A DNA stretch of 20,886 nt, taken from positions 1-20,886 of the IMG/VR virus record IMGVR_UViG_3300042731_004594. One strand, 5' to 3'. Made by a program: the position numbers and the translations under genes. This DNA comes from a virus. Below the pieces are notes generated by a model, which had not been told where the DNA came from, searched no databases, and saw only the letters and a list, made by a program, of their open reading frames with translations. Within the stretch, counting starts at the first letter, position 1. Every line of letters starts with the position of its first letter. Positions 3,628 to 18,966 of this stretch are shown here, one piece after another.

Positions 3628-3944
3628 TTGATCTACTGCTTTGGAAACTTGAATGGGGTCCTTATGAGGACAAACTTAAAGCAGTAGGTAAATTAAAAGA
3701 TCAGCCAAAATTATATAAAGATTTAGAATATATTTGGGAAGCATTTTTAGCTCTTTCTAATACAAGAACTTCGTTAGAAAGTATTAAATTTTCTGAAATT
3801 GAATCTTATTTAAATTTGAATTGTATTTATAATGAAGATATTAGAACAGAAGTTACTCATTTAATTCGCATAATGGATATAAAGTATATTGAATACATGG
3901 CTAAAAAGTTAGAAGAAACGAGAAAGAAATATGCCAAGTCTTGA
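3220..3944 (+). CDS. tail assembly chaperone, -1 frameshifted long form (gpGT-like)
   Basis: The 303 bases between the short form and the tape measure gene are open in the -1 frame from the slippery site to TGA at 3942-3944, adding about 106 residues. The extension reads LIDLLLWKLEWGPYEDK, then YKDLEYIWEAFLALSNTR, then a SEIESYLNL segment and VTHLIRIMDIKYIEYM. This is the pattern of gpT-type extensions (IWEAF..LS..R, an SEI.-YL.L helix, LIR.MD..Y). There is no credible independent start codon at the beginning of this frame. The end overlaps the tape measure start by 14 bases. In lambda the T domain binds the tube protein while the G domain binds the tape measure; the same division of labour is inferred here. 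Confidence 0.88.
3618..3689 (+). promoter_or_regulatory. programmed -1 ribosomal frameshift signal (slippery heptamer plus hairpin)
   Basis: The heptamer A AAA AAT spans 3618-3624 in the correct phase (gaA AAA AAT) with the zero-frame TAA immediately after it at 3625-3627. Eight bases downstream a perfect 10-bp stem forms between CTACTGCTTT (3633-3642) and AAAGCAGTAG (3678-3687). It can be extended outward by a U-G and an A-U pair. An inner GTCC/GGAC hairpin (3658-3661 with 3668-3671) sits in the loop. Slippery site, spacer length and stem match the textbook arrangement for chaperone frameshifting. Confidence 0.9.
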
Positions 3945-6267
3945 TGTTGCTATAAATGCTTTAAGAGCCGAGCATGGTGCTAAAAAGTTTGATGCTGCTG
4001 TAAAGAAAATTAAAAAAGGTGCATCACAAGTAGATTCAAGTTTAGAGAAGAATTCAAAAACTTTTAGTAATTTTAGTAGTCAACTTCAGAATGTTGTTGT
4101 TGGGTTTGCTGGGATAGCTGGAGCATATAAAGCTTTTGGATTTTTTAAAGAAGGCATACAATTAGCTGCTGCCTACGAATTGGAGTTGGCTAATGTTAAT
4201 ACTATGTTAGATGAGCAAACTGCTCATTATTTACCACAATTTGAAAGAGAACTTTCAAATTTAGCTGTAAGATATGGTGAATCAACTACTTCTTTAACGA
4301 AAGGTTTGTATGATATTCTATCTGCAAGTATAGATGCAAGCAAAGCAACAAAAGTATTGGAAGTTTCTATTAAATCAGCTACAGGTGGTATGACTTCTGC
4401 TGCTATTGCTGCTGATGCTTTAACTACAATTATTAATAGTTATGGCTTAGAAGCGGAGCAAGCAGAGCATGTCAGTGATATTTTATTTAATACGGTAAAA
4501 GGTGGAAAGATAACTTTTGAAGAAATTGCAAGTTCCGTTGGTAAAGTTTCTGCTTTGGCTGCTTCTGCTGGCTTGACGATGGAAGAATTATCTGCATCTA
4601 TAGCTACGATGACAAGAGCAGGTTTACAATCTGATATAGCTATGACATCTTTAAAAGCTATTTTAACAGCTTTTTTAAGTCCTACCAAGGAATCTGCTTT
4701 AGCTGCTAAAAATCTTGGATTTGAATTAAATACCACTACATTACAAACTATTGGTTTGATTGGAGTGATGGAAAAATTAAAAAGTGCTACTAGTGAAGAG
4801 GTAGCTGCTATATTTAGCAATGTTCGTGCTCTAACAGGCGTGGCAGCTATGAGACAGAATGTTACTGGGTTAATAAGAGATCAAGAAAGAGCCTTAAAGT
4901 CTTTAGGAGCTACACAAGAGGCATTTAATAAAATTGATAGAACAACTAATCAACAACTTGAACAGACTTCTGAATTAATTAAGCAAGTAAAAAGAGATAT
5001 TGGGAATGAGCTAATTCCAACTCTAAATTTATGGGCCATAGGATTTCAAAAATTAGTAGAAGATTGGAAAAGAGGTTGGTGGTCGATAGAAGAAGAACAA
5101 AGAAAAGCAATGGAAAAAATAAATGAAAACATAGGAGGTTTAAAATACGCTAGATTAATACCTGCTTACGTTCTTTTAGAAGGTGGCATAAGAAAAGTAA
5201 TGGGCTCAAATTTAGAATTTACAAGTTCATTAATTGAAGCTGATGAAGCTATACAAAAATTAGACAACTCTTCTAAATTACTTGGAGAAACATTAACTAA
5301 ATTAGAAAATAAAACTGTAAAAGTTGATGTAATACAGCCAGATGCAATAAAACCTTTTGTTGTAACTGATGAAATAAAAGATGCTAGAAAAGAAATAAAT
5401 AACCTATTAAAAGAAATAGAAGTAGAAAAAGAACTAATAGGATTAACAACAGAAGAACGTGAACGTGCTATAAAAGTTATGGAGTTTGAAAAGCAAGCAA
5501 AGATTGCTCTTGGTGAAAATTCACAACAAGCTGTAGAAATGTATAAGAATGAATTAATAGCTATGGGTGAAGCATATAAAGAAGCAGCTAGAAATGAAGA
5601 ATTTGCAAAAAATATAGAAGATAGTATGCGAGCTATGATACATGCTCCAATTGAAGCTTTATTTGATGAATCGCAGGATATAGAAGATGTGTTAAAAAAT
5701 CATTTAAGGAGTCTGGGACAAAGTATATTAGAACAAATGTACAAGGATGTTATAACAGACCCTCTAATGAATTCAATCAAAGCAGGTGTTCAACCAGCAA
5801 TGAAAGAAGTGATGTCTATGATTACGAATGCTCTTAGTAGTGCTGCCGGTGGTATAACTCAAGGGATAGGTAGTTTTGTTGGTATGGCGGTATCTGCTTT
5901 ATTTGGAGGATTTGGTGGCGGGGGTGCTGCTGTTGCTGCTGGACAAGGAGATGTTTTTAGTGGCAGAATGTTGAAGCGATTTGGAAAAGGCGGGGTATTA
6001 AATAGACCAACTTTATTCCCTATGTCCAACGGTGGATTAGGATTAGGCGGAGAAGCTGGTGATGAAGGGTTGTTACCTTTAGGTAGAGATAGCAGAGGAA
6101 GATTAGGTGTAAGAAGTACTAATGGTGGGGAAAATAAATCTAATATTAAAATAATAAATATAGTTGATAAAAGCCAATTTTCTGAATATCTAAATTCTGG
6201 CGATGGTGAAAGAACCATTGTGAATATTATGAATAGGAATAAATCATCACAAGAATTTTCAGGTTAA
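3931..6267 (+). CDS. tail tape measure protein
   Basis: This 778-residue protein sets tail length and is held in the tube lumen until DNA ejection. Residues of about 70-320 match the TP901/PhageMin_Tail core (YELELANVNTMLDE, LAVRYGESTTSLTKGLYDILSA, SVGKVSALAASAGLTMEELSASIATM, SDIAMTSLKAILTAF). The C-terminus near 680-725 has the FGKGGVLNRPTLFPMSNGG / GEAGDEGLLPL / GRLGV pattern also seen at the end of lambda-type tape measures. Helical, charged sequence fills the middle, and hydrophobic stretches lie at about 50-70 and 615-660. At the usual 1.5 angstrom per residue the tail would be about 115-120 nm long (inference). It overlaps the gpGT extension by 14 bases, and no strong Shine-Dalgarno is seen. 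Confidence 0.92.
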   Translation: MPSLDVAINALRAEHGAKKFDAAVKKIKKGASQVDSSLEKNSKTFSNFSSQLQNVVVGFAGIAGAYKAFGFFKEGIQLAAAYELELANVNTMLDEQTAHYLPQFERELSNLAVRYGESTTSLTKGLYDILSASIDASKATKVLEVSIKSATGGMTSAAIAADALTTIINSYGLEAEQAEHVSDILFNTVKGGKITFEEIASSVGKVSALAASAGLTMEELSASIATMTRAGLQSDIAMTSLKAILTAFLSPTKESALAAKNLGFELNTTTLQTIGLIGVMEKLKSATSEEVAAIFSNVRALTGVAAMRQNVTGLIRDQERALKSLGATQEAFNKIDRTTNQQLEQTSELIKQVKRDIGNELIPTLNLWAIGFQKLVEDWKRGWWSIEEEQRKAMEKINENIGGLKYARLIPAYVLLEGGIRKVMGSNLEFTSSLIEADEAIQKLDNSSKLLGETLTKLENKTVKVDVIQPDAIKPFVVTDEIKDARKEINNLLKEIEVEKELIGLTTEERERAIKVMEFEKQAKIALGENSQQAVEMYKNELIAMGEAYKEAARNEEFAKNIEDSMRAMIHAPIEALFDESQDIEDVLKNHLRSLGQSILEQMYKDVITDPLMNSIKAGVQPAMKEVMSMITNALSSAAGGITQGIGSFVGMAVSALFGGFGGGGAAVAAGQGDVFSGRMLKRFGKGGVLNRPTLFPMSNGGLGLGGEAGDEGLLPLGRDSRGRLGVRSTNGGENKSNIKIINIVDKSQFSEYLNSGDGERTIVNIMNRNKSSQEFSG

Positions 6268-6742: not shown

Positions 6743-6798
6743 AAATTAATTTGAGAGATAATTCTGACGGCGATGTTTAGTTTTTGAGGAGAACTAAA

Positions 6799-8052
6799 AT
6801 GACGGATAAAAAAATAAAAGTATATTTTGCGTTGTTAAATAATGGCCCGATAAGAAGAGAAATGTCTACTATAGTTATACCAGCTATGCAAAAAACTCCG
6901 GGAGTCGAATTGGTATGGGAAAATCCTAGCGTGACTTGGGCCAATCCAATTTCAAGTAATCGTAATAAAATTGTCAAACGATTTTTAGAAACAGATTGTG
7001 ATTATTTATTAATGATTGACGATGATGTTGTACCATATCATAATCCGTGTGAATTGGTTTTTGCGGGCGGTAATACTGATGTTATTGGTTGTCCGGCTTT
7101 AGTAAGAGCTTCTGGTCAAACAATTGTTTGGACTGCATATATACCCCATTCTGATGGAATTGGCTATTCGGCGGTAGATTTAGATTCATTTGATGATATG
7201 TTTGATTTATTAGAAGTTGCTATAGTTGGCACTGGATGTATTTTGATAAAAAGAGCAGTATTAGAAAAAGTAAGAGAGCCATTTCATTCTGAATTTGATG
7301 AAGATGGTATCCAAACTTATGGTACTGATTTTGCGTTTTGTAGAAGAGCTACAAAAGCTGGATTCCATGTTTATACAACTGTTCATAGACGTTGCGAACA
7401 TTTTAAAACAGTTGGCTTAAATGATTTTGACGCTTGGGACAGCATAAACTATTTTTGTAGTGATAATGCTAAATTTGGCATTCCTTGGGGTGAATATAGC
7501 ATAACTCAAAAAGATTGGAATTTTATAAAAGCCATTATAAAAGGTTTAGGAGTTGAAAAAATATTGGAGTTCGGTTGTGGTTTATCTTCTTTATTGCTTT
7601 CTGAATTATGCGAAGTTATAAGTTACGAAACTGATAATGAATGGAAAGAAAAGATAGAAAGCAAAGTATTGCCCCAAAATAATTTAACTGTAAAGCTTTG
7701 GGATGGCGTTAATTTTCCAAGAGATTTAATCAAAGTAGATGCAAAACAAGGAGTAAAGACTCCTAAATTCGATTTATGCTTTGTTGATGGCCCAAAAGAA
7801 ATAAGAAAAGGCGGTGCTGGTAGAAATATGTCTATTCATATTGCATCAAAATTATCGGATCATGTTATAGTACACGATGCTGGACGACCTGATGAAGAAA
7901 AATTTCAAAGAGCACATCTTCGTAGTGTTTTTAAACTTGAAAGAAAAAGTGGCAATCACATGACAAGATGTAATTATTGGAAAAGACGACCACATCCAGT
8001 AACTCTTGAAGAAATAAAAGCTAAAATGAAAAGCAGTAATATAAATAATTAA
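6799..8052 (+). CDS. glycosyltransferase (GT-A) fused to class I methyltransferase-like domain
   Basis: This 417-residue protein starts at ATG 6799, eight bases after GAGGAG; a TTG at 6784 is in frame but has no ribosome site. Residues 1-205 resemble a GT-A glycosyltransferase. They show SSNRNKIVKRFLETDCDYLLMIDDDVVP with the IDDD (DxD, metal/nucleotide-sugar binding) at 73-76, AIVGTGCILIKR at 141-151, and TDFAFCRRATKAGF at 176-189 followed by a CEHF. Residues of about 238-390 resemble a SAM-dependent methyltransferase: ILEFGCGLSS (motif I, glycine loop at 258-261), an acidic YETDNEW strand end at 276-282, and LCFVDGPKE at 326-334. It is a cytosolic enzyme encoded inside the tail operon, just upstream of a Ser-rich adhesin. 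It may glycosylate virion proteins or a sugar precursor; the acceptor is unknown. Confidence 0.75.
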   Translation: MTDKKIKVYFALLNNGPIRREMSTIVIPAMQKTPGVELVWENPSVTWANPISSNRNKIVKRFLETDCDYLLMIDDDVVPYHNPCELVFAGGNTDVIGCPALVRASGQTIVWTAYIPHSDGIGYSAVDLDSFDDMFDLLEVAIVGTGCILIKRAVLEKVREPFHSEFDEDGIQTYGTDFAFCRRATKAGFHVYTTVHRRCEHFKTVGLNDFDAWDSINYFCSDNAKFGIPWGEYSITQKDWNFIKAIIKGLGVEKILEFGCGLSSLLLSELCEVISYETDNEWKEKIESKVLPQNNLTVKLWDGVNFPRDLIKVDAKQGVKTPKFDLCFVDGPKEIRKGGAGRNMSIHIASKLSDHVIVHDAGRPDEEKFQRAHLRSVFKLERKSGNHMTRCNYWKRRPHPVTLEEIKAKMKSSNINN

Positions 8053-8086: not shown

Positions 8087-11086
8087 ATGTCTCGTTTGTT
8101 TAATAACACTGTTCCTGAATACTTGTATAGAAATTCTGCTATACAAGCCACTCCTCCGTTTGCATGGAGTTGTTGGTGTAGAGTTAATGATAAAAGTGTT
8201 ATTAATAATTTTTTATGGCTAGGGGATAAAGATGCTACGAACCAATGCCATAGAATGGGATATTCTTCTGCTGGTTATTGTTTTATTAATTCTAATGATG
8301 GAACGAGTAAATTGGCAATAACTTCTGGTGATATAACTGAAAATGAATGGTTCCATCTTGTTGGCATTATTGCTTCAGATACCGACCGACGAATTATAAG
8401 GAATGCTATAGATAAAGGGACAGAATCTACTTCTATTTCACCTTCAGGTATTGATAGATTCACTATTGGTATAAGGGGGAATGATGAACAGCTTGATCAA
8501 GCCACATCTGGAAATATATCAGAAGTGGCAATTTGGGACTTATCTTCTTGGCCGGGAGCTACTGCTTCAGATAAAGCAGATAGCTTTGAAGCTATAGTGT
8601 CTAATCTTGTTAGTGAGGATTATCTACCTAGTGATTATCCCACAGGATTAGTTTCTTATTGGGATTTATTGTGGAGCATAAGAGATAAAGTTGGTTCTAA
8701 TGATTTAACTGCTGTTGGCACTGTTGAAGCACAACATTATCCGTATATATTTAGTCCCATCTCTTCTTCATCTAATTTTATAGGATCTATTGATTTTGAA
8801 GTTTCAAATTTAATAGGTTCTATTAGTTCAGCTTCTAGTTTATCAGGTAATTTAAATTCTGCAATTACATTAATAGGCTCTATTAGTTCAGCTTCTAGTT
8901 TATTAGGTAATTTAAATGCAGCAACTAAGTTACTTGGTGCTATAAGTTCAGCTTCTAGTTTATCAGGTAATTTAAATTCAGCAATTACATTAATAGGTTA
9001 TATTGCTTCTTCATCTAGTTTATCAGGTAATTTAAATTCAGTAATTCAATTTACAGGTTCTATTAGTTCAGCTTCTAGTTTATCCGGTTCTTTTACAAAT
9101 GAAGTTCCGCTGATAGGTTCTATTAGTTCAGCTTCTAATTTATCAGGTAATTTAAATTCAGCAATTAAATTAGCAGGTTCTATTGCTTCTTTATCCAGTT
9201 TATCAGGCAATTTAAATTCAGCAATTACATTAATAGGCTCTATTGCTTCTTTATCCAGTTTATCAGGTAATTTAAATTCAGCAATTACATTAATAGGTTA
9301 TACTGCTTCTTCATCTAGTTTATCAGGTGTTGTTGAAATGCCAGTAAATTTAGTTGGTAATGTATTATCTAGTTCTGGTATAATTGGTGAATTAACAGTT
9401 ATAAGATACAATAATTTAGCAGGTAATTCGCTGTGTAGTACTAATTTGATCGCCCTATTGGAAGTTTATATTAATTTATTTGGCAATTGTGTAAGCGTTT
9501 CTATTACAGTAGGTGAAATCAGAGAACCTATTTATTTACAGGGAGCTATTTTTAATGACTCTAGTCATGATAATTGGTTATCTCCAACTAGTTTTATTGA
9601 CAATGCCAATTGGGTAGATGAAAGTAGGGCATATGATGGTAATGTGAACACTTTTGCAGGACATTCATATATATTCCCTCGTAGTTGGTCTGGATTTTTG
9701 CAATTATTGCATTCTTCAATATGGTGCAACAAGATAAGATACTATGAAGATTTATGGCTTCCTAATGATTTATATGATTTAGATGTCTATTATAATAATT
9801 CTTGGCATAATCTTTATCAAGGTAAAGGATCTTTGACTGGGGTTTGGAAAACTCACAATCTTAATGGTATTTACAAAGTTTCAAGAGTTCGTATCAGAAG
9901 ATATAATAGTGATGGAGAATATAGATCAGTTTATATCCATGAAGTTAATTTTAATGAATACATGGGGTCATTGCTATATGGACTATTAACATTCTTACTT
10001 GGATTATCTGGGACTTGTGAAGTTAATTCTAGTTTGAACGCTGATTTACAAGTAATTAAATCCTTGCAAGATAGTATTAATAGTTACTCAAATATTTATA
10101 GTGATTTAAGTTTTACTTATGATTATAGAGGAAGTATTTCATCAAATTCTAATATATCAGGAAATCTAACTGTAGAAAAGTCAATAAACTCGCAAGTATT
10201 TTGTTATTCTAGCGTGATTAGTTCTTTGCATCAATGCAAAGAACTGATAGGGCATTCGACTTCATTTTCTATATTATCTGGATTATTGACAAATATAGTA
10301 AGTTTAAATGGCTTGAGCTTGGGAGTAAGTTATCTTTCAGCGGATCGTCTAAATACCATAATATTAGAATCTGAGATATTAGGCATAACGCAGCCTCTAG
10401 GAAATGCATATGCTTCATTAGAAGTATTGACTAGTTTAGAATCTAGTATTTTAGATACTTCCAATTTATATTCTAATTTCAGTCTTATAATAAATTTAAT
10501 AGGTGAAATTGATTCTGAATCTAATTTATTTGCTGATAGGCTAAATACTATAATATTAGATGGGTCAGTAAGTGGTGTCACTGAGCCTTTTGGCAATGCT
10601 ATTGGTGCATGCAAAGTAGAAACTACTTTACAAAGTGTAATTAATAGCAAGTCTAATATAAATTCGTTACAACTTTTAGAATATTACATAGGATTCTATG
10701 AACGTTTAACTAATCAAATTACTACTTATTTTCAATCTATTGCTGATTCTAATAATTTAATTGTAAGATATGATGATGATTGCAGGGATACTCCTTCAAA
10801 TGAATTGTGGTGTTTTTGTAGTATAGATTATGGTAGCTGTAATAAGAGTAGTATTGGTGCTAATCGTTTTAGAAATATTGGCAATTTAAATATAAAAATA
10901 AAAAACCCAATAGGTTTAGGTATTAGCGAAATCTTGAGCACTGCTGACATAGTGGCTAATGCTTTTAGGAATATTAATTTAAATAATATTATTTTTGAAG
11001 TCCCCAGAGTTAGAAATGTTGGCAGAATAAAAGATGATCATCAATACAATGTTATTTGTCCATTTTTTTCGGATAGAATAGGTTAA
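8087..11086 (+). CDS. large multidomain tail adhesin: LamG-like, 20-aa repeats, discoidin-like, terminator-like
   Basis: This 999-residue protein is mosaic. Residues 1-220 look like a LamG/concanavalin-type jelly roll (FAWSCWCRV, ENEWFHLVGIIA, ISEVAIWD, GLVSYWDL). Residues of about 221-480 are 20-residue Ser/Gly repeats (SISSASSLSGNL type), regular at 60 bp per unit. Residues of about 485-630 resemble a discoidin/F5-8C carbohydrate-binding domain (RAYDGNVNTFAGHSY, CNKIRYYED, KVSRVRIRRYNSDG). Residues 630-865 hold degenerate repeats and a 64-residue tandem duplication. Residues of about 866-999 are a second copy of the tail terminator encoded at 1072-1464 (YFQSIADSNNLIVRYDDDCRDTP, ELWC, FRNIGN, VICPF). 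The jelly-roll and discoidin-like domains suggest sugar binding on the host surface. A terminator-like end could anchor it to a tail ring (inference). Only a weak ribosome site (AAGG) is present. Confidence 0.78.
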   Translation: MSRLFNNTVPEYLYRNSAIQATPPFAWSCWCRVNDKSVINNFLWLGDKDATNQCHRMGYSSAGYCFINSNDGTSKLAITSGDITENEWFHLVGIIASDTDRRIIRNAIDKGTESTSISPSGIDRFTIGIRGNDEQLDQATSGNISEVAIWDLSSWPGATASDKADSFEAIVSNLVSEDYLPSDYPTGLVSYWDLLWSIRDKVGSNDLTAVGTVEAQHYPYIFSPISSSSNFIGSIDFEVSNLIGSISSASSLSGNLNSAITLIGSISSASSLLGNLNAATKLLGAISSASSLSGNLNSAITLIGYIASSSSLSGNLNSVIQFTGSISSASSLSGSFTNEVPLIGSISSASNLSGNLNSAIKLAGSIASLSSLSGNLNSAITLIGSIASLSSLSGNLNSAITLIGYTASSSSLSGVVEMPVNLVGNVLSSSGIIGELTVIRYNNLAGNSLCSTNLIALLEVYINLFGNCVSVSITVGEIREPIYLQGAIFNDSSHDNWLSPTSFIDNANWVDESRAYDGNVNTFAGHSYIFPRSWSGFLQLLHSSIWCNKIRYYEDLWLPNDLYDLDVYYNNSWHNLYQGKGSLTGVWKTHNLNGIYKVSRVRIRRYNSDGEYRSVYIHEVNFNEYMGSLLYGLLTFLLGLSGTCEVNSSLNADLQVIKSLQDSINSYSNIYSDLSFTYDYRGSISSNSNISGNLTVEKSINSQVFCYSSVISSLHQCKELIGHSTSFSILSGLLTNIVSLNGLSLGVSYLSADRLNTIILESEILGITQPLGNAYASLEVLTSLESSILDTSNLYSNFSLIINLIGEIDSESNLFADRLNTIILDGSVSGVTEPFGNAIGACKVETTLQSVINSKSNINSLQLLEYYIGFYERLTNQITTYFQSIADSNNLIVRYDDDCRDTPSNELWCFCSIDYGSCNKSSIGANRFRNIGNLNIKIKNPIGLGISEILSTADIVANAFRNINLNNIIFEVPRVRNVGRIKDDHQYNVICPFFSDRIG
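8761..9540 (+). repeat. tandem 60-bp coding repeats (20-aa units) in the adhesin
   Basis: From about 8821 to 9360 the sequence repeats with an exact 60-base period over nine units, with degenerate units on both sides. Each begins near TATTAGTTCAGCTTCTAGTT or the variant TATTGCTTCTTCATCTAGTT and continues TATCAGGTAATTTAAATTCA. Units at 9181-9240 and 9241-9300 differ at only four positions by eye, indicating recent duplication. The encoded unit has the form LxGxIxSxSxLSGxL plus five variable residues. Confidence 0.93.
10340..10680 (+). repeat. 192-bp tandem duplication within the adhesin
   Basis: ADRLNTIILESEILGITQPLGNA, encoded from 10340, recurs as ADRLNTIILDGSVSGVTEPFGNA from 10532, exactly 192 bases (64 codons) later. 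The similarity continues through LEVLTSLESSI versus CKVETTLQSVI. The copies have diverged at DNA level, so the duplication is older than the 60-bp units. Confidence 0.75.
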
Positions 11087-11087
11087 T

Positions 11088-13364
11088 ATGGCTTATAATT
11101 TGCAAGATTCTTATACTGACAATGATCAAATAATATTACCTATTAGTAATGATACAGTTATTGCACAGTCTTTTACAGCCAGTTCTAGTTATGAAGCTAT
11201 AAAAGTAGAATTATTATTATATCGCATAGGAACTCCTTCTAATATAACAGTAACAATAGAAGGTGTTTCTGGAGGTTATCCTGATAATAGCCCTTTGGCT
11301 TCAATTGAAGTAGATATATCTAGTATCACTACTAATAGTTCTGGTGAATGGGTTGAATGTGTTTTTAGTTTTGGAGCTAAATTATCTAATGGCTCTCAAT
11401 ATTTTATTGTTGTGAGTGGAGGCTATGCAAGCGGTTCAGATTATTACAACTGGAAATCTGATTCTAATGATGCTAATTACGCTGGGGGAACTCAAGTTTG
11501 GTCATTAAATAATAGGGGCTCTTGGAATGGCCTTAATGATGATGGTACTTTTAAAGTTTATTCTGAAGACCCCTTATTTGAATCTTCGTCAAATATTACT
11601 TCAAATTTATCTGGAAGTTTAAGTGTCAATAATTTGTTTGAAGGTGGTATAAATATTAATTCGTCAATAAATGGCGAAATAATTATAAATGAAATTATAA
11701 TATTAGGCACATTATCTTATGAAACAAATATAAATGGTAATATTGGCATAAAATTTAATATATTAGGTTCTTTAAATAGTTTATCTAATTCATCCGGTTA
11801 TATTAATAAATTAATTGATATAAATTCTGAGATAATAGCTGCTTCTAATTTTATAGGTTCTATTTTAATTTCTATTGATTTATTTAGTAGTGCTGCCTCT
11901 TCTAGTAGTTTATCAGGATGGTTAGTACCTTATTTTGATGGCAGAAATGATTGTCTATCATCTAGCTCAGTAAGCGGTTATGGTACTGTAATTTGGGCTT
12001 TAAATGGTTATTCTAATGAAGTTGCAATTATACCAGTAGATTTTTGTATTTTAAATGCTGTAAAATTAGGTTCAAATATTTTGCCTAATAGTAGCTTGTT
12101 AGGATTTTTAAATAGAGAACAAGAATTGTATTCCAATGTGATTCAAGATAGTACTTTATCATCATTTTTAGATATAATACCAGATTTCGAAGCTGCTACT
12201 TTATATTATAGGCCACAAAATAAAATTCTAGAAACAATGGAATGGAAGACTAGTATTTTAAAAGCTCGTGATGGTACAGAACAAAGGATTAAAATAAGGC
12301 AATCACCTAGACAACATTTTAAGCTGAATATTTTATTTGAAACTAACAAAATAAATACAAAATTTGATGCTTTAATACATGGTTGGCAAAAATTAACTTG
12401 GTTGTTACCAATATGGACTGAATACGTTATACATACAACAGATATAAATCATCATGATATTTACGTTGATGTTGACACAACTTTTGCTGATTTTAGAAAT
12501 AATAGCAAAGCTATAATCTGGCAATCGCCGGATTATTTTGAAGTAATAACTGTAGATTCTAAAACAGATAGTAGATTAAATTTAAATGCAAATTATACTG
12601 TATTAAATAATTTTACTGGCTCTAAAATCATAGCCCCTGTAAGGACGGCATATTTAACATCTTCTATCAACAAAAAAAGATACAATTCAGAATTATCTTT
12701 AATAGAATTAATTTTTGAAGTTTATGACAATATAAATTTTGATGATTATACTCCAGAAATAAATTATGATGGGTTCGCTGTTTTAAATATACCTTCATTT
12801 ATGGAAAATAGTCATGATGAAACTAGTGATGCTGATATTATAGTGGTAGATTATGAGACTGGAATTTTTGATGTTAAGAGTTATAGCGATTTTAATTTCT
12901 TGTCCCAAGATCATATTTTTATTAATGAAACTAAACAAGAATGTTGGAATTTTAGAAAATTTTTGCATTCTTTAAATGGTCAACAAAAGACCGTGTTAAT
13001 ACCTACTTTTAGAAATGATGTTGTTCAAATTTCTAATATTGATGCTGATGATATATATGTAGATATTGAAGAAATAGGCTTGACTGATAATATGGGTTTA
13101 AATGATTTAAGAACTTATATTGGATTTTATTTCACCGATGGTACTTTAATAGTAAGAAAAATAATCGATATATCTAAAATTAATGAGACTAATTATGAAA
13201 GAATAACTTTGGATAAACCATTAAATTTATCCACAATTTTAACTCCCGGTGATTGTAAGATAGGATTCGTTGATAAATGCCGTTTGGCTTCTGATAAAGT
13301 AGAATTGAAATGGGATTTTGCCGGTAGAAATGAATGTAAAACCAGATTTATGAGAGTACCTTAA
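11088..13364 (+). CDS. tail tip/minor tail protein with jelly-roll domain and repeats
   Basis: This 758-residue protein has three parts. Residues 1-160 form a jelly-roll-like module resembling the 'choice-of-anchor R' type: IAQSFTASSSYEAIKVELLLYR, then GTPSNITVTIEG, WVECVFSFGAKLSNGSQYFIVV, YYNWKSDS and GTFKVYSED. It recurs three times in the hub at 15004. Residues of about 162-365 are degenerate 20-residue Ser/Gly repeats. Residues 366-758 look like the conserved tail-tip part: METMEWKTSI-type sequence, ARDGTEQRIKIRQSPRQHF (the 'W.T.vl.a.dG.EQRi.lR..PR' pattern of tail-tip proteins), and a closing DKVELKWDFAGRNECKTRFMRVP. The position between the adhesin and the gpL-like gene suggests a distal-tail ring or tip component. 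The start is one base after the previous stop. Confidence 0.75.
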   Translation: MAYNLQDSYTDNDQIILPISNDTVIAQSFTASSSYEAIKVELLLYRIGTPSNITVTIEGVSGGYPDNSPLASIEVDISSITTNSSGEWVECVFSFGAKLSNGSQYFIVVSGGYASGSDYYNWKSDSNDANYAGGTQVWSLNNRGSWNGLNDDGTFKVYSEDPLFESSSNITSNLSGSLSVNNLFEGGININSSINGEIIINEIIILGTLSYETNINGNIGIKFNILGSLNSLSNSSGYINKLIDINSEIIAASNFIGSILISIDLFSSAASSSSLSGWLVPYFDGRNDCLSSSSVSGYGTVIWALNGYSNEVAIIPVDFCILNAVKLGSNILPNSSLLGFLNREQELYSNVIQDSTLSSFLDIIPDFEAATLYYRPQNKILETMEWKTSILKARDGTEQRIKIRQSPRQHFKLNILFETNKINTKFDALIHGWQKLTWLLPIWTEYVIHTTDINHHDIYVDVDTTFADFRNNSKAIIWQSPDYFEVITVDSKTDSRLNLNANYTVLNNFTGSKIIAPVRTAYLTSSINKKRYNSELSLIELIFEVYDNINFDDYTPEINYDGFAVLNIPSFMENSHDETSDADIIVVDYETGIFDVKSYSDFNFLSQDHIFINETKQECWNFRKFLHSLNGQQKTVLIPTFRNDVVQISNIDADDIYVDIEEIGLTDNMGLNDLRTYIGFYFTDGTLIVRKIIDISKINETNYERITLDKPLNLSTILTPGDCKIGFVDKCRLASDKVELKWDFAGRNECKTRFMRVP
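11571..12182 (+). repeat. degenerate 20-aa repeats in the tip protein
   Basis: Residues of about 162-365 of the tip protein carry units such as LFSSAASSSSLSGWL, SNIT-SNLSGSL and FIGSI, with the same G/I/S/S/L/G spacing as the adhesin array but with more divergence. One unit is followed by LVPYFDGR, matching LIPYFDGR after a unit in the hub. The shared 18-base string ccttattttgatggcaga is at 11928-11945 here and 18346-18363 there. Confidence 0.75.
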
Positions 13365-14236
13365 TGGCAGTTATTTCTTTAGAATCAATTTTTTCTGTTT
13401 CTAGTTCACTAATTGGTGAGATTGAATTAGATAATTACCTTAATCTTGAACAAAGTCCACAAGATGGCAATCCAATAGAATTGTATTTATTTAATAATTC
13501 TGATTTAGAATATTGGTTATATACTAGTAGTGATTCTGTGGTGAATTACGAAGGTAGAACTTATACTCCAGTATTGATAAGAAGAGGAGATATTGTTTTA
13601 GATATAAATTCTCTAAAAACTCAATTAGAAATTGAAGTAGAAATAACAAATCCTATGACTCTAAATTGGATAGGAGGACCAATAGAAGGCGTAGTTCAAC
13701 TAACTATATATCGTTATCATAATAATTCTTTTGTGACTTATTGGAAGGGGTATGTGCGGGGGGTTAAATTTCAACGAGATTCAGCTATTATAATATCAGG
13801 GTTAAAGAATATTAGTCTTAAAAGATTTGGGTTAATGCGTAAGTATCAAAGAAATTGTGGTTTATCATTATATTCAAATAGATGCGGAATTTCAAAAACA
13901 GATTCAAATTATTATGTTGATGGGATTATAAACTCTGTTAATGGTACAACGATAGATGCTACAATTTTCAGCTCTAAAATTGATGGATGGTTTTTAGGTG
14001 GGATTTTTAAAACAGATACTGGTAATTGTCTACAAAAAATAGTTTATCATTCTGATACAGTTATAAGAATATCAAGGGCTATTTCTTCTTTAGTAGCTGG
14101 TCAAACTTTTAGAGCTTGGGCTGGATGTGATCATCTTATGGATACTTGTAAAACTAAATTTAATAATAAATTGAATTATGGAGGTTTTCCGTATTTACCA
14201 GATAAAAATCCATTTTCTGGGGATGCGGTTATGTAA
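13364..14236 (+). CDS. gpL-like minor tail tip protein with putative [4Fe-4S] site
   Basis: This 290-residue protein is of the lambda gpL / BR0599-DUF2163 type and acts at the tail tip next to the gpJ-like hub. The N-terminal domain reads IELYLFNNSDLEYWLYTSSDSVVNYEGRTYTPVLIRRGDI, typical of this family. The C-terminal domain has Cys165-x8-Cys174 (NCGLSLYSNRC) and Cys255-x6-Cys262 (GCDHLMDTC), then KFNNKLNYGGFPYLPDKNPF. The x8 and x6 spacings equal those of the four cysteines that bind a [4Fe-4S] cluster in lambda gpL. Residues of about 4-20 (ISLESIFSVSSSLIGEI) resemble one 20-aa repeat unit of this phage, with one extra residue. The start overlaps the previous stop (TAATG). Confidence 0.85.
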   Translation: MAVISLESIFSVSSSLIGEIELDNYLNLEQSPQDGNPIELYLFNNSDLEYWLYTSSDSVVNYEGRTYTPVLIRRGDIVLDINSLKTQLEIEVEITNPMTLNWIGGPIEGVVQLTIYRYHNNSFVTYWKGYVRGVKFQRDSAIIISGLKNISLKRFGLMRKYQRNCGLSLYSNRCGISKTDSNYYVDGIINSVNGTTIDATIFSSKIDGWFLGGIFKTDTGNCLQKIVYHSDTVIRISRAISSLVAGQTFRAWAGCDHLMDTCKTKFNNKLNYGGFPYLPDKNPFSGDAVM

Positions 14237-14238
14237 TT

Positions 14239-14592
14239 ATGTTTACAACAAGAAGATTGAAATTAAGATATGCGATTATTTTACAATTGATAGCAGGTTT
14301 ATTGTATGCTGATATGGTGTTTAGTGACTTGTCTAATACAGCTACAGATTCTGGGACACAACTTGCACTTATAAATTTTTTAATACAAGTAGCTATTATG
14401 GTGGCATTGTCTATGATATTAGCTCCAAAACCTAAGCAACCAAAAAAACCTTTACCAGTTGGATTAGAACAATTTGATATACCTACTGCTGAAGAAGGGC
14501 GGCCAATACAAGTTTTATTTGGTAAAAGATATATCGCGTCATCCAATGTTGTTTGGTATGGACATTACAGAACTGTTGCTGTTTGGGGGTAA
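14239..14592 (+). CDS. tail hub N-terminal membrane-type segment (possibly split from the gpJ-like hub)
   Basis: This 117-residue protein has a basic start (TTRRLKLR), two hydrophobic segments at about 11-30 and 41-63, a linker LAPKPKQPKKPLPVGLEQFDIPTAEEGRPIQVLFGKRYIASSNVVWYGHY, and then stops. In many siphophages the 'IPTAEEGRPI.V.FG...i...NVVWYGd' block continues, after a Lys/Gly-rich linker, straight into 'GYrYYLGMHMVlcHGpvd'. Here that continuation occurs near the start of the 15004 gene, after a GNAT-like gene. It is therefore probably one half of an interrupted hub gene, though a naturally separate small tail protein is possible. It starts two bases after the preceding stop, and its 3' end lies just ahead of the next gene's TTG. 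Confidence 0.7.
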   Translation: MFTTRRLKLRYAIILQLIAGLLYADMVFSDLSNTATDSGTQLALINFLIQVAIMVALSMILAPKPKQPKKPLPVGLEQFDIPTAEEGRPIQVLFGKRYIASSNVVWYGHYRTVAVWG

Positions 14593-14594
14593 TT

Positions 14595-15002
14595 TTGGAA
14601 GTAAAAAAAGCTGAAAATCCAATTATTGTTAAATATTTAAAACCATTTTTTATTGAAGATAGCTTCTATACTAAAGATATAATCGCTAAAGAAATATTTA
14701 ACATGATGGTTAAAGTTCCTAGAGAAATATTTGTAGCAATTATATTTGAAAAGGATTTATTACATGGCTTTATTATTGGGTGGCTTGAAAAAGATAATAA
14801 TTTTATTTGGATAACACAGGCTTGGTCCAAACCGGGAACGGATAGAAAATATGGCCGTAAGGCTATAAATATGATTAAAGAATGGGCGGTTAATAATTTT
14901 AATATACATGAAATGCGATTTGAGACAAATAGAAATCCTAAAGCTATAGAAAGAGTTTGGGGCTTTAAAATACATTCTTATATTATGAAAGATAAATTTT
15001 AG
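14595..15002 (+). CDS. GNAT-like acetyltransferase protein inserted between hub gene parts
   Basis: This protein of about 135 residues starts at TTG 14595, six bases after a GGGGGT ribosome-like run. The same frame is open upstream to TTG 14553, inside the previous gene. The fold pattern is GNAT-like: REIFVAIIFEKDLLHGFIIGWLEKDNNFIWITQAW (strands), then RKYGRKAINMIKEWAVNN in place of the acetyl-CoA loop/helix, and IHEMRFETNRNPKAIERVWGFKIHSYIMKDK, the usual 'fET.RN.kA.eR..GFk.ys..M' ending. The acetyl-CoA binding motif (Q/RxxGxG/A) is only partly kept as RKYGRKA. GNAT-like proteins occur among virion genes of several phages with unproven roles. Here it separates two segments that look like one hub protein. 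Its stop is one base before the next ATG. Confidence 0.65.
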   Translation: MEVKKAENPIIVKYLKPFFIEDSFYTKDIIAKEIFNMMVKVPREIFVAIIFEKDLLHGFIIGWLEKDNNFIWITQAWSKPGTDRKYGRKAINMIKEWAVNNFNIHEMRFETNRNPKAIERVWGFKIHSYIMKDKF

Positions 15003-15003
15003 T

Positions 15004-18000
15004 ATGTTATTTTTCAATCTACCATTACCAAAAGACAATACTGAAGTAGAATATTGTAATACCATTTTTCAGGTATCTAAAGATTCTATGTGTCAACTTA
15101 GATTTAAGAAAAAGAAGAAGCCCCAAGTTATAGGCTATAGATACTATCTTGGAATGCATATGGTCGCTGGTCATGGTAATATGGATGGGTGCGAAAGAAT
15201 ACGAGTTGGTGAAAAAACGGCTTGGACAAATTCTGAAACTCTAAAAGATACATATAATAATGAAATAAGTTCTTATCTTTTATCACCTATTGTACATTAT
15301 GGTCAAACTTTTACAGCTACTTCTTCTTATATAGCTAGTTCTGTTTCTTTAAGAATGTGGAGAAATTGGAATGCATTTCCTGGAACTTTGACTGTTAGCA
15401 TAAGGGATGTTGATACAGACACTGGATTACCTACTGGTGAAGATTTGACAAAAGGTACTACTGATGGTGATACTCTAGTGGAACAGCCTGCTTATGTGAG
15501 TTTAGCAGAATGGAGAAATATAGAATTTGATTTTCCAATAGAATTAGAATCAGGAAAACAATATGCTATTGTTGTTAAAGGTTTGCCTTTTGAATCTGCT
15601 GGTTTTGGAGGGGCTAATTGGAATATAGATACTTACTATCATTATTCAGGAGGAGGTTTTTGTGTTTCTTTAGACGAGGGAATTACTTGGGGATTTGAAA
15701 CATCCAACTATGATGCTTCTTTTAGAATATATAAACAAAATGGGGACGCTGCTGATGCTACTATATCTATTTCATCAGATAGTTTATTTGGTGGTGATAA
15801 AAAAGAGGGTGGAATTTCTGGTCCTGTTGATTTTATGTTTGGTTCTTCAAGTCAATCTCAGAATTCTTATCTAGTAGCTAGATTAGGAAGTGATATACCT
15901 GCTTATAGAGGGGTGTTTTCAGCAGTATTAAGACAAGTTTATGTTGGAACAAGTCCGTATATTAAACCTTGGAGTTTTTTATGCAGACGAATTGGTAAAC
16001 AAACCGATGGATCTGTACAATGGTATCCAGAGAAAGCAGCTATAAATGCAAGAGAAGCTGACGGTGATGATTTAAATGCTGCTCATATAATAAGAGAATG
16101 TTTAGTAGCTCCTGAATGGGGCTTAGGATGGACTGAAGATGATATTGATGATGATAAATTTAAAGAGGCTGCTAATATATTATATGATGAGAATTTTGGT
16201 TTATCTATGTTGTGGGATCAAGTACAACCTTTGGAGGAATTTATAGATGAGATTTTAAATTATATCGCTGGAATTTTGTATCAAGATTTGTCATCAGGTA
16301 AATGGGTTTTATCATTAGCTAGAGATTCTGATTACACTACTGCATATAATGGATATACAAATAGTGATGATAATCAAGTAAATGCTTCAATAGGTAATGC
16401 AAGATTAGCTCAAACATTCATCACTGATAAAACATATACACCAGCTTATGCTAAAATAAAAATTTATAAACAATTTGAAGAACATACTTGTAATATAAGG
16501 TGCGAACTTCAAGGAACGGATAGCAATGGTGATCCTGATGGAAATGTTATTACTCACGGAACTATATCGACTTCTGATGTAACTACATCAGCTTCTTGGG
16601 TAACTTGCAATTTTTCTTCTGAATCAGAATTAAATGTAAATACTAAATATGCTTTAGTAGTATATCCAATAAGCGGGACCGGTACTATGTATTGGCGATA
16701 TGATTCATTTGGACAATATGAAGGACATTTTGTAACATCTGGTGACGCAGGCTCTTCTTGGACAAAAAATAGGATTAGAGATTTTATGTTCGAAATTTAT
16801 GCAGGAGGCCAATTAGAAACTTTTAATGAAGATGATATTATGGAGGTCGAAGAATTTACGCGACCGGCTTATGGTGAAATCATTGATGTTATAGCAGTTA
16901 AATTTTGGAACAAATTAACGCATAAGCCACGTTCAACTGAAGCAAGAGATATTGCATTAATAGAAAAACAGGGGAACGCGGAGATAGAAAAAGTTTTAAA
17001 TTATCAAGGTATATGTAATAAAAGTTTGGCTAATGATGTTGCAGAAAGAGAATTAAAATTGATGACTTCTATGTTAGCTGGAGTAAGATTAAAATGCACA
17101 AGAAGGATGGCTCATTTAAAACCTAATGATATATTCAAATTTTCTTGGAGTGAATATAATATTACTCAAATGGCTCTAAGAGTTTTGAATGTTAATTATG
17201 GCAATTTACATAAGAACGAAGTGATAATTACTTGCACTGAAGATGAGTTTTGTGCTGCCCCTACTATATATGGTGATGCTGCTGATACTCTACATACAGA
17301 AGCTGCTAATGACCCCTCTAATGTTTCTAATATTATTTTATCTGAATTACCATATTTTTCATTGGCTAATGATGTGATAGGTTCCAAAGATTTGGTTGAT
17401 TTATTAGGTAATGACGCTGGTTATTTAGCTGTTGTAGCTTCGAAACCTACTGATGATGCTTTTGATTTTGATCTATATGCTAGATTATCTGCTTCTTATG
17501 AATTTGAAGATATAGGCCAAGGTAATAATAGATGGACTCCATCAGCTATTATTACCAATGGGTTGACTCAAAGTTCAGAGGATGAAGACGTAGATTTGAC
17601 AACTGAAATAGATTTAGATTTTGTAGAAGAAAATACATACGCTATTATAAATAATGAATTAGTCTTGATTAATTCTGTAGATTATGATAATATGCAAATA
17701 AATATTTCTAGAGGTGTATTAGACACAGTACCACAAGCTCATTCTGCTGGAGATAGAATTTATTTTATGGATTTAAACTATAGCATGCCTTCAGATGAAT
17801 ACACTAGCAATGATCAACCACAAGTTAAAATTCTAACAAGAACTTCTTTAGGAACTCTAGCTGAAGATGATGCTGACATACAAACATCAGATGCTTTTGA
17901 CAGTAGGATGATAAGGCCATATCCTCCGGGCAATTTAAAATTTAATGGGGAAAGTTTTCCTCAATATTTTTCTACAGCCATAACCGGCAAAATTGCCATT

Positions 18001-18966
18001 ACTTGGAATCATAGAGATAGAACTGATGTAGTACAATTAAATTCTATAGTAAAACACACCAATTCTAATAACTATGGCCCAGAAGCTGGTACTACTTATA
18101 CTATAAAAATATATGATGCTGATGGTGGATTAGGTAGAACTGTTACAGGATTATCTGGGACTTCTTATGATTATACCGAGGCGTTTGAACTTTCTGATTT
18201 TGGCTCATTGCAAGATACTTTAAGATTTGTTATATATGCAGTTCGTGGTGGATACAATTCTTGGAATAATGGCTATGATGTAACTTTAGAGCGTTCTTAT
18301 AGAGGTGACGTTGATTCAAATAGTAATGTTAGTGGAGAATTGATTCCTTATTTTGATGGCAGATTTAGAATAAATCCATCTTCTACTGTTGATGGGGATA
18401 TAATAAGATCAATCGGGTTATATGGAGTAATAAATTCATCTTCTAATTTGACTGGCATTATGAATCCTGAAATATTAACAGAAAGCTATATTGATGGGTG
18501 TACTTCTTATCATACGGTTTATTGGGTTGGAGCAACGGAGCAATGGATAGCTCAGACTTTTACTGCTTCTGAAGATTATGATTTTATAAGAACGGTATTG
18601 AATTTGTATAAATTAGTAGGTGATCCAGGAAATATAGAAGTTTCGATAAAAGCAACTGATGGAGGCGGTGCTCCTATAGGTGCTGATTTATGCTCAGCAA
18701 TTTTAGATGCTAATGGATTTACAACAGATTCAAATGGAAGAGAAGAATCATTTTCTTTTGAATCATCTATTAGTTTAACTGATGGAATTAAATATGCAAT
18801 AATTTTAAAATCTCCAACAAATGAGAGTACTTATGTTCGTTGGAAAGTTGATAATTCAAGTCCTTCATATTCTGGAGGAAATTTTTATTACTCATTAAAT
18901 GGTGGCTCAACATGGAATGCAGATAATACTTTAGATGGATATTTTAAAAATTTCAAATCAACTTAA
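15004..18966 (+). CDS. central tail hub / host-specificity protein, gpJ-like
   Basis: This 1320-residue protein is the tail-tip hub that binds the receptor. Conserved scaffold: GYRYYLGMHMVAGHG...RIRVGEKTAW (44-74); LFGGDKKEGGISGPVDFMFG (261-280); PAYRGV, VGTSPYIKPW, AAHIIRECL, EWGLGW, NFGLSMLWD and GKWVLSLARD (300-441); NEDDIMEVEEFTRPAYGE through QGNAEIEKVLNYQGI and RMAHLKPNDIFKFSWSEY (608-720); a fibronectin-III-like section at about 975-1097. Jelly-roll domains interrupt this scaffold at about 77-250 and 445-602, and a third forms the C-terminus (1160-1320). Three 20-residue repeat units lie at 1098-1157. Residues 1-35 match nothing I recognise, and no ribosome site precedes the ATG, which is one base after the GNAT stop. 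Confidence 0.88.
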   Translation: MLFFNLPLPKDNTEVEYCNTIFQVSKDSMCQLRFKKKKKPQVIGYRYYLGMHMVAGHGNMDGCERIRVGEKTAWTNSETLKDTYNNEISSYLLSPIVHYGQTFTATSSYIASSVSLRMWRNWNAFPGTLTVSIRDVDTDTGLPTGEDLTKGTTDGDTLVEQPAYVSLAEWRNIEFDFPIELESGKQYAIVVKGLPFESAGFGGANWNIDTYYHYSGGGFCVSLDEGITWGFETSNYDASFRIYKQNGDAADATISISSDSLFGGDKKEGGISGPVDFMFGSSSQSQNSYLVARLGSDIPAYRGVFSAVLRQVYVGTSPYIKPWSFLCRRIGKQTDGSVQWYPEKAAINAREADGDDLNAAHIIRECLVAPEWGLGWTEDDIDDDKFKEAANILYDENFGLSMLWDQVQPLEEFIDEILNYIAGILYQDLSSGKWVLSLARDSDYTTAYNGYTNSDDNQVNASIGNARLAQTFITDKTYTPAYAKIKIYKQFEEHTCNIRCELQGTDSNGDPDGNVITHGTISTSDVTTSASWVTCNFSSESELNVNTKYALVVYPISGTGTMYWRYDSFGQYEGHFVTSGDAGSSWTKNRIRDFMFEIYAGGQLETFNEDDIMEVEEFTRPAYGEIIDVIAVKFWNKLTHKPRSTEARDIALIEKQGNAEIEKVLNYQGICNKSLANDVAERELKLMTSMLAGVRLKCTRRMAHLKPNDIFKFSWSEYNITQMALRVLNVNYGNLHKNEVIITCTEDEFCAAPTIYGDAADTLHTEAANDPSNVSNIILSELPYFSLANDVIGSKDLVDLLGNDAGYLAVVASKPTDDAFDFDLYARLSASYEFEDIGQGNNRWTPSAIITNGLTQSSEDEDVDLTTEIDLDFVEENTYAIINNELVLINSVDYDNMQINISRGVLDTVPQAHSAGDRIYFMDLNYSMPSDEYTSNDQPQVKILTRTSLGTLAEDDADIQTSDAFDSRMIRPYPPGNLKFNGESFPQYFSTAITGKIAITWNHRDRTDVVQLNSIVKHTNSNNYGPEAGTTYTIKIYDADGGLGRTVTGLSGTSYDYTEAFELSDFGSLQDTLRFVIYAVRGGYNSWNNGYDVTLERSYRGDVDSNSNVSGELIPYFDGRFRINPSSTVDGDIIRSIGLYGVINSSSNLTGIMNPEILTESYIDGCTSYHTVYWVGATEQWIAQTFTASEDYDFIRTVLNLYKLVGDPGNIEVSIKATDGGGAPIGADLCSAILDANGFTTDSNGREESFSFESSISLTDGIKYAIILKSPTNESTYVRWKVDNSSPSYSGGNFYYSLNGGSTWNADNTLDGYFKNFKST
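18295..18474 (+). repeat. three 20-aa repeat units in the hub C-terminal region
   Basis: Residues of about 1098-1157 divide exactly into three 20-residue units starting YRGDVDSNSNVSGEL, GRFRINPSSTVDGDI and LYGVINSSSNLTGIM. The G, V/I, S, S, hydrophobic, G and hydrophobic positions match the adhesin units. They link the fibronectin-like part to the C-terminal jelly roll. Confidence 0.75.

Follow-up and report, generated by a model that had tools for sequence, protein, structure and literature searches.

Hub and neighbouring tail genes

The window, a whole viral contig fragment of 20,886 bases from an uncultivated tailed phage with a GC content of 31%, carries a tail gene cluster in which a tape measure gene (3931-6267) is followed by a 138-aa ORF, a glycosyltransferase-like gene and the gene for a 999-aa LamG protein, and then by a 758-aa gene (11088-13364), an upper baseplate protein gene (13364-14236), a 117-aa ORF, an acetyltransferase-like ORF and the gene for a 1320-aa hub (15004-18966). 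The 758-aa and 1320-aa ORFs are both intact; these two genes, the upper baseplate and 117-aa genes and all parts of them mapped below lie on the + strand.

Sequence and fold searches show that the 1320-aa product is a normal gpJ/JBD30-type baseplate hub. It matches PF13550 with 27 bits (cut-off 23) and phrog_1101 with E=4e-222 at residues 603-1103, phmmer matches in the PDB include 8vjh_A (chi) and 8rk3_o (JBD30), and a Foldseek search with an AF2 model of the monomer (pTM 0.49) returned JBD30 (E=1e-58), chi, lambda gpJ and T5 pb3. Scaffold homology and a position after the distal tail and upper baseplate genes both place it among the gpJ-type hubs. The 758-aa gene had been described in the original prediction as a tip protein, a designation that must be corrected: it encodes the distal tail protein (Dit), with its core at about residues 370-758, and matches phrog_1082 (E=5e-84), JBD30 8rk3_U (E=2e-25) and chi 8vjh_B, itself labelled 'Distal tail protein'. 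The hub's partner, the upper baseplate protein (DUF2163/phg_TIGR02218), is recognised by TIGR02218 (82.5 bits) and matches PDB entries 8vjh_D and 8rk3_g. The 117-aa tail gene (14239-14592; phrog_1180, E=3e-21) has the N-terminal piece that is seen at the start of phrog_1101 (positions 3-68), and NP1 likewise has a separate small gene at this position. Nothing was returned from Rfam, a tRNA search or folding for the region after the hub.

Several further features of the cluster were observed. The acetyltransferase-like ORF (14553-15002; GNAT, sub-threshold Pfam E=0.055) lies between the 117-aa tail gene and the hub, with homologues at the same spot in the related phages L011, L013 and L097 and none in L003, L009, L095, L099 or L020; hubs that adjoin this ORF have an N-terminal extension of about 30 residues or longer. 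A 422-aa gene (6784-8052) is glycosyltransferase-2-like at its N-terminus and methyltransferase-like at its C-terminus, each by a weak match. The end stretch of the LamG protein (8087-11086) matches the tail terminator family phrog_179 and, read by eye, resembles a 130-aa ORF at 1072-1464, so that a fibre-like gene would have a second piece of tail-terminator type fused to it. An S-S-x-S-G-x-L spacer repeat of about 20 residues recurs in the LamG protein (8810-9328, where a 60-bp unit is present 8.6 times), in the distal tail protein (within 11588-12100) and in the hub linker that precedes module C (within 18320-18470); its copy number varies strongly between phages and it was also noted in L003, L016, L018 and L020.

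One domain family in four places

A domain of about 165 residues occurs four times in the window, three times in the hub, as modules A (residues ~76-250; 15229-15750), B (~445-602; 16330-16818) and C (~1160-1320; 18463-18963), and once as module T at the N-terminal end of the distal tail protein (residues 1-165; 11088-11579). These limits differ by no more than a few residues from those first proposed, and the proposal that a single module occupies all four places is borne out by sequence searches. Pairwise BLAST links the four segments at E = 6e-6 to 9e-21 with about 23-38% identity, the strongest match being that of T to C (38%, E=9e-21). Profiles made with A, B or C copies taken exclusively from other phages each find the whole set of four in the window, with scores of 55-198 bits, including A by the class-A profile (172 bits), B by class B (198 bits), C by class C (167 bits) and T by all three (59-79 bits); among 400 shuffled proteins the highest score was 13 bits. 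The NCBIfam model choice_anch_R (NF041539) matches the hub in three stretches with 46 bits in total (cut-off 30), the best single place reaching 28.8 bits, although it finds no match in the isolated module C or in the distal tail protein. Beta-sandwich tail domains are common and the pairwise identities are low, but chance resemblance of unrelated beta-rich segments is counted as refuted, as independent profiles cross-recognise the copy classes at 55-111 bits, far above the shuffles, and the same NCBIfam model matches 15 of the 19 clade copies. The same shuffles led to the rejection of low complexity or composition as the source of the repeats. The translations show no C-terminal sorting signal beyond the modules, the cell-surface anchor to which the choice_anch_R name refers; the carriers in the window are phage tail proteins, which have the domain in common with that family and not its anchored-protein architecture.

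The AF2 model of module C (m5cc4a2d214e4) is all-beta with a mean pLDDT of 89.7, and its best PDB match by Foldseek is 9euj_G of phage phi812, a DUF4815 baseplate tail protein (TM 0.83, rmsd 2.7). A beta-sandwich can thus be predicted with confidence, and the jelly-roll topology that had been proposed is plausible. The module profile also finds the phi812 protein by sequence (E=4e-10), so that ORF65 of phi812 carries the same domain by both sequence and fold, but it does so in a contractile-tailed phage, on another carrier protein and with one significant copy found. The fold is not confined to related phages, with 65 matches in BFVD at E<=0.001, and relatives in Staphylococcus phages are annotated as 'adsorption associated tail protein'; a literature search on DUF4815 found no functional phage paper. 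Modules A and C gave no tblastn match at 0.01 in 50,697 phage records, and the L012 copy of A matched Staphylococcus phages alone, weakly. No cellular donor was found in the phylum of L091, where a choice_anch_R search of 398 genomes gave one sub-threshold partial match. Pfam lectin and carbohydrate-binding families match the modules weakly or below cut-off (Lectin_like 1.7e-4, DUF4082 0.0035, CBM_4_9 0.021).

Insertion sites and history of the copies

Modules A and B interrupt the hub scaffold at two loops, with flanks that read TAWT|...|NGDAADATISIS..LFGG at site 1 and LARD|...|QLETFNEDDI at site 2. Scaffold is aligned before site 1 (15103-15228, alignment A3), between the sites (15745-16326, alignments A3 and A7) and after site 2 (16810-18312, the stretch with the phrog_1101 match), while A follows ..GEKTAWT and precedes ..ATISISSDSLFGG, B lies between ..LSLARD and ..QLETFNEDDI, and C follows the S-S-x-S-G-x-L linker at the hub C-terminal end. 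The hubs of Vibrio, Pseudomonas NP1, Vibrio BA3 and Stenotrophomonas phages can be aligned to the scaffold up to each of A and B and again after it, and have nothing in between. JBD30 gp53, phage chi and the Queuovirinae have the same scaffold and the same neighbours (distal tail protein, upper baseplate protein, small gene, hub), but no domain at either site; the sites are also empty in most viral-contig hubs, and A is absent from L004-L007. The flanks are nearly adjacent in the solved hubs, at residues 45/48 and 240/242 of JBD30 and 46/48 and 250/257 of chi. The predicted clean interruption of the scaffold at two loops, with a further copy added at the end, is therefore upheld, and insertion-free gpJ homologues do exist in related phages.

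Among 155 hub ORFs collected from viral and genome contigs, with related sequences counted, 119 lack any insert of at least 40 aa. Within this census, only the clade of the window has sites 1 and 2 occupied, except for a different insert of 110 aa at site 1 of L107, and none of the three hubs found in the genome-contig scan has these modules. Two other sites were observed in the census. A third loop, at about window residue 355, holds inserts of 150-338 aa from other families in distant hubs (L058, L063, L068, L072, L074, L082, L083, L089-L091, L155 and L159), those of L082 and L155 being von Willebrand A domains, and a fourth site near the scaffold end, at about window residue 1060, holds 216-500 aa in L058, L071-L073, L076, L081, L091 and L156.

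In a tree of the scaffold alone, the 13 hubs with modules are monophyletic (100/100) and nested within module-free hubs. The window phage is extended by a near-identical contig, L002, a second contig from the same metagenome has an identical distal-tail module, and L003, at 54% identity, carries all three hub modules (A, B and C) in the same positions. The A copies form one clade (12 rows, 100/99), as do the B copies (10 rows, 98/96). Because A groups with A and B with B across at least a dozen phages, and not by genome, both were fixed in a common ancestor before the phages diverged. A and B are thus old and vertically inherited with the scaffold, with no fresh duplication in the window genome; the repeated intragenomic duplication first proposed is not supported as worded, and signs of swapping are seen for C and T alone. 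L097, the first branch of the module-bearing clade (86/91), has A and C and an unbroken site 2, which suggests that A came first, the alternative being that B was lost in L097. The A and B copies of L020/L100 fall outside the main clades and may reflect replacement or independent gain. The C copies form two separate lineages, one of which, {L009, L097}, clusters with the module on the L099 distal tail protein (96/92), so the hub end and the distal-tail end have apparently exchanged modules; C and T thus appear to be swappable ends, more freely exchanged than A and B.

The phylogeny of the four copies that had been called for resolves A and B into clades by position, and favours a common origin of all window-clade copies only weakly (74/21). 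For the origin of the copies, it is possible, if somewhat doubtful, that each was a separate horizontal acquisition of a widespread phage domain and not a duplication within the lineage, a history that would be compatible with an adhesin role. The spread of the fold over unrelated phages, reaching Staphylococcus phages by sequence, speaks for such acquisitions, as do the low support for a common origin and the long separate branches of window T and of the L020/L100 copies. However, in the same tree the clade copies lie together, apart from the outside modules (phi812, Stau2 and the sister-clade distal-tail modules), and a local donor was at hand, since sister phages without hub inserts carry a distal-tail module (L106, 47 bits; L018, 39 bits). 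The diverged L018 module was missed by a profile search of whole records and gave its 39 bits in a direct profile search; in L016, a C module begins at the contig end.

Function of the modules and comparison with known baseplates

The proposed course of events is that an ancestor with a gpJ/JBD30-type hub gained one beta-sandwich domain of adsorption type at loop site 1 and a second at site 2; further members of the family occupy the C-terminus of the hub and the N-terminal end of the neighbouring distal tail protein. The JBD30 baseplate contains a hub trimer and a distal-tail trimer (PMC11445458); by analogy, about 9 + 3 = 12 modules would surround the baseplate of the window phage. Most likely they would act as auxiliary adhesins, making weak, multivalent contact with host-surface polymers, and the C-terminal copy would be best placed for primary host contact, because no receptor-binding gene was recognised downstream of the hub within the window. 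An adhesin role is the best explanation of the modules and is considered more likely than not; carbohydrate binding, part of the original prediction, and outward projection are inferred. The fold match to the phi812 baseplate protein and the adsorption annotation of its relatives speak for the adhesin role, and the weakness of the lectin-type Pfam matches speaks against it. Also in its favour, the modules change faster than the scaffold (mean pairwise identity is 43-45% for A and B and 59% for the scaffold), which is frequent in host-contact domains.

An unlikely alternative is that A and B serve as structural braces of the hub trimer, or of its contacts with the distal tail or upper baseplate proteins, and that only C and T touch the host. 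A and B do sit at fixed sites and are vertically inherited, unlike C and T, and the inserted FNIII-A domain of lambda contacts gpI inside the tail tip. Against bracing, close relatives at about 50% identity (L014, L016-L018) have the same hub without A and B, L097 does without B, and the faster divergence of both modules is again to be set against the slower scaffold.

The adhesin reading has a parallel in the evolved Dits of phages of lactic acid bacteria, in which carbohydrate-binding modules on the distal tail protein aid adsorption (PMC7291167, PMC10688798). In both cases extra modules are borne on a conserved baseplate scaffold, and module-free and module-bearing versions coexist in related phages. 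However, the evolved Dits hold their modules in loops of the Dit galectin domain, a placement not found in the window, where two copies interrupt the hub and the Dit copy is N-terminal; moreover, the window module belongs to another family, whose sugar binding is putative. In lambda gpJ, an Ig-like domain, FNIII-A (residues 72-215), is inserted in the HDII-insertion domain (PMC10721106), so that a foreign beta domain likewise lies within the N-terminal part of a gpJ hub, but FNIII-A is assigned to another family and, in weak profile alignments, it stands about one strand downstream of site 1, with nothing at site 2. Homology of the two sites is not claimed, the single-sequence profile comparison being weak (probability 6-11%).

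Domain insertion into a baseplate scaffold is thus known from evolved Dits and from lambda FNIII-A. The literature searched contained no description of the specific arrangement in the window, where a single domain family occupies two internal hub loops, the end of the hub and the distal tail protein, and where natural intermediates exist. A broader reading, to which we would give slightly short of an even chance, is that Dit and hub together present some 12 homologous adhesin modules in a ring, that A was acquired earlier than B, and that this 'evolved hub' parallels the evolved Dits, its permissive sockets being filled with different domains in other hub lineages.

Phage adhesion is usually described in terms of a terminal receptor-binding protein. 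Here, the conserved hub itself is a repeated acceptor of one adhesin-like domain, and the natural intermediates (none, A only, A and B, with or without C) allow stepwise tests of the contribution of each copy. The census shows loops that tolerate whole domains, sites 1 and 2 in the window clade and two further sites in other hubs, and such domain-tolerant loops could guide structural work on the tail tips of Gram-negative siphophages.
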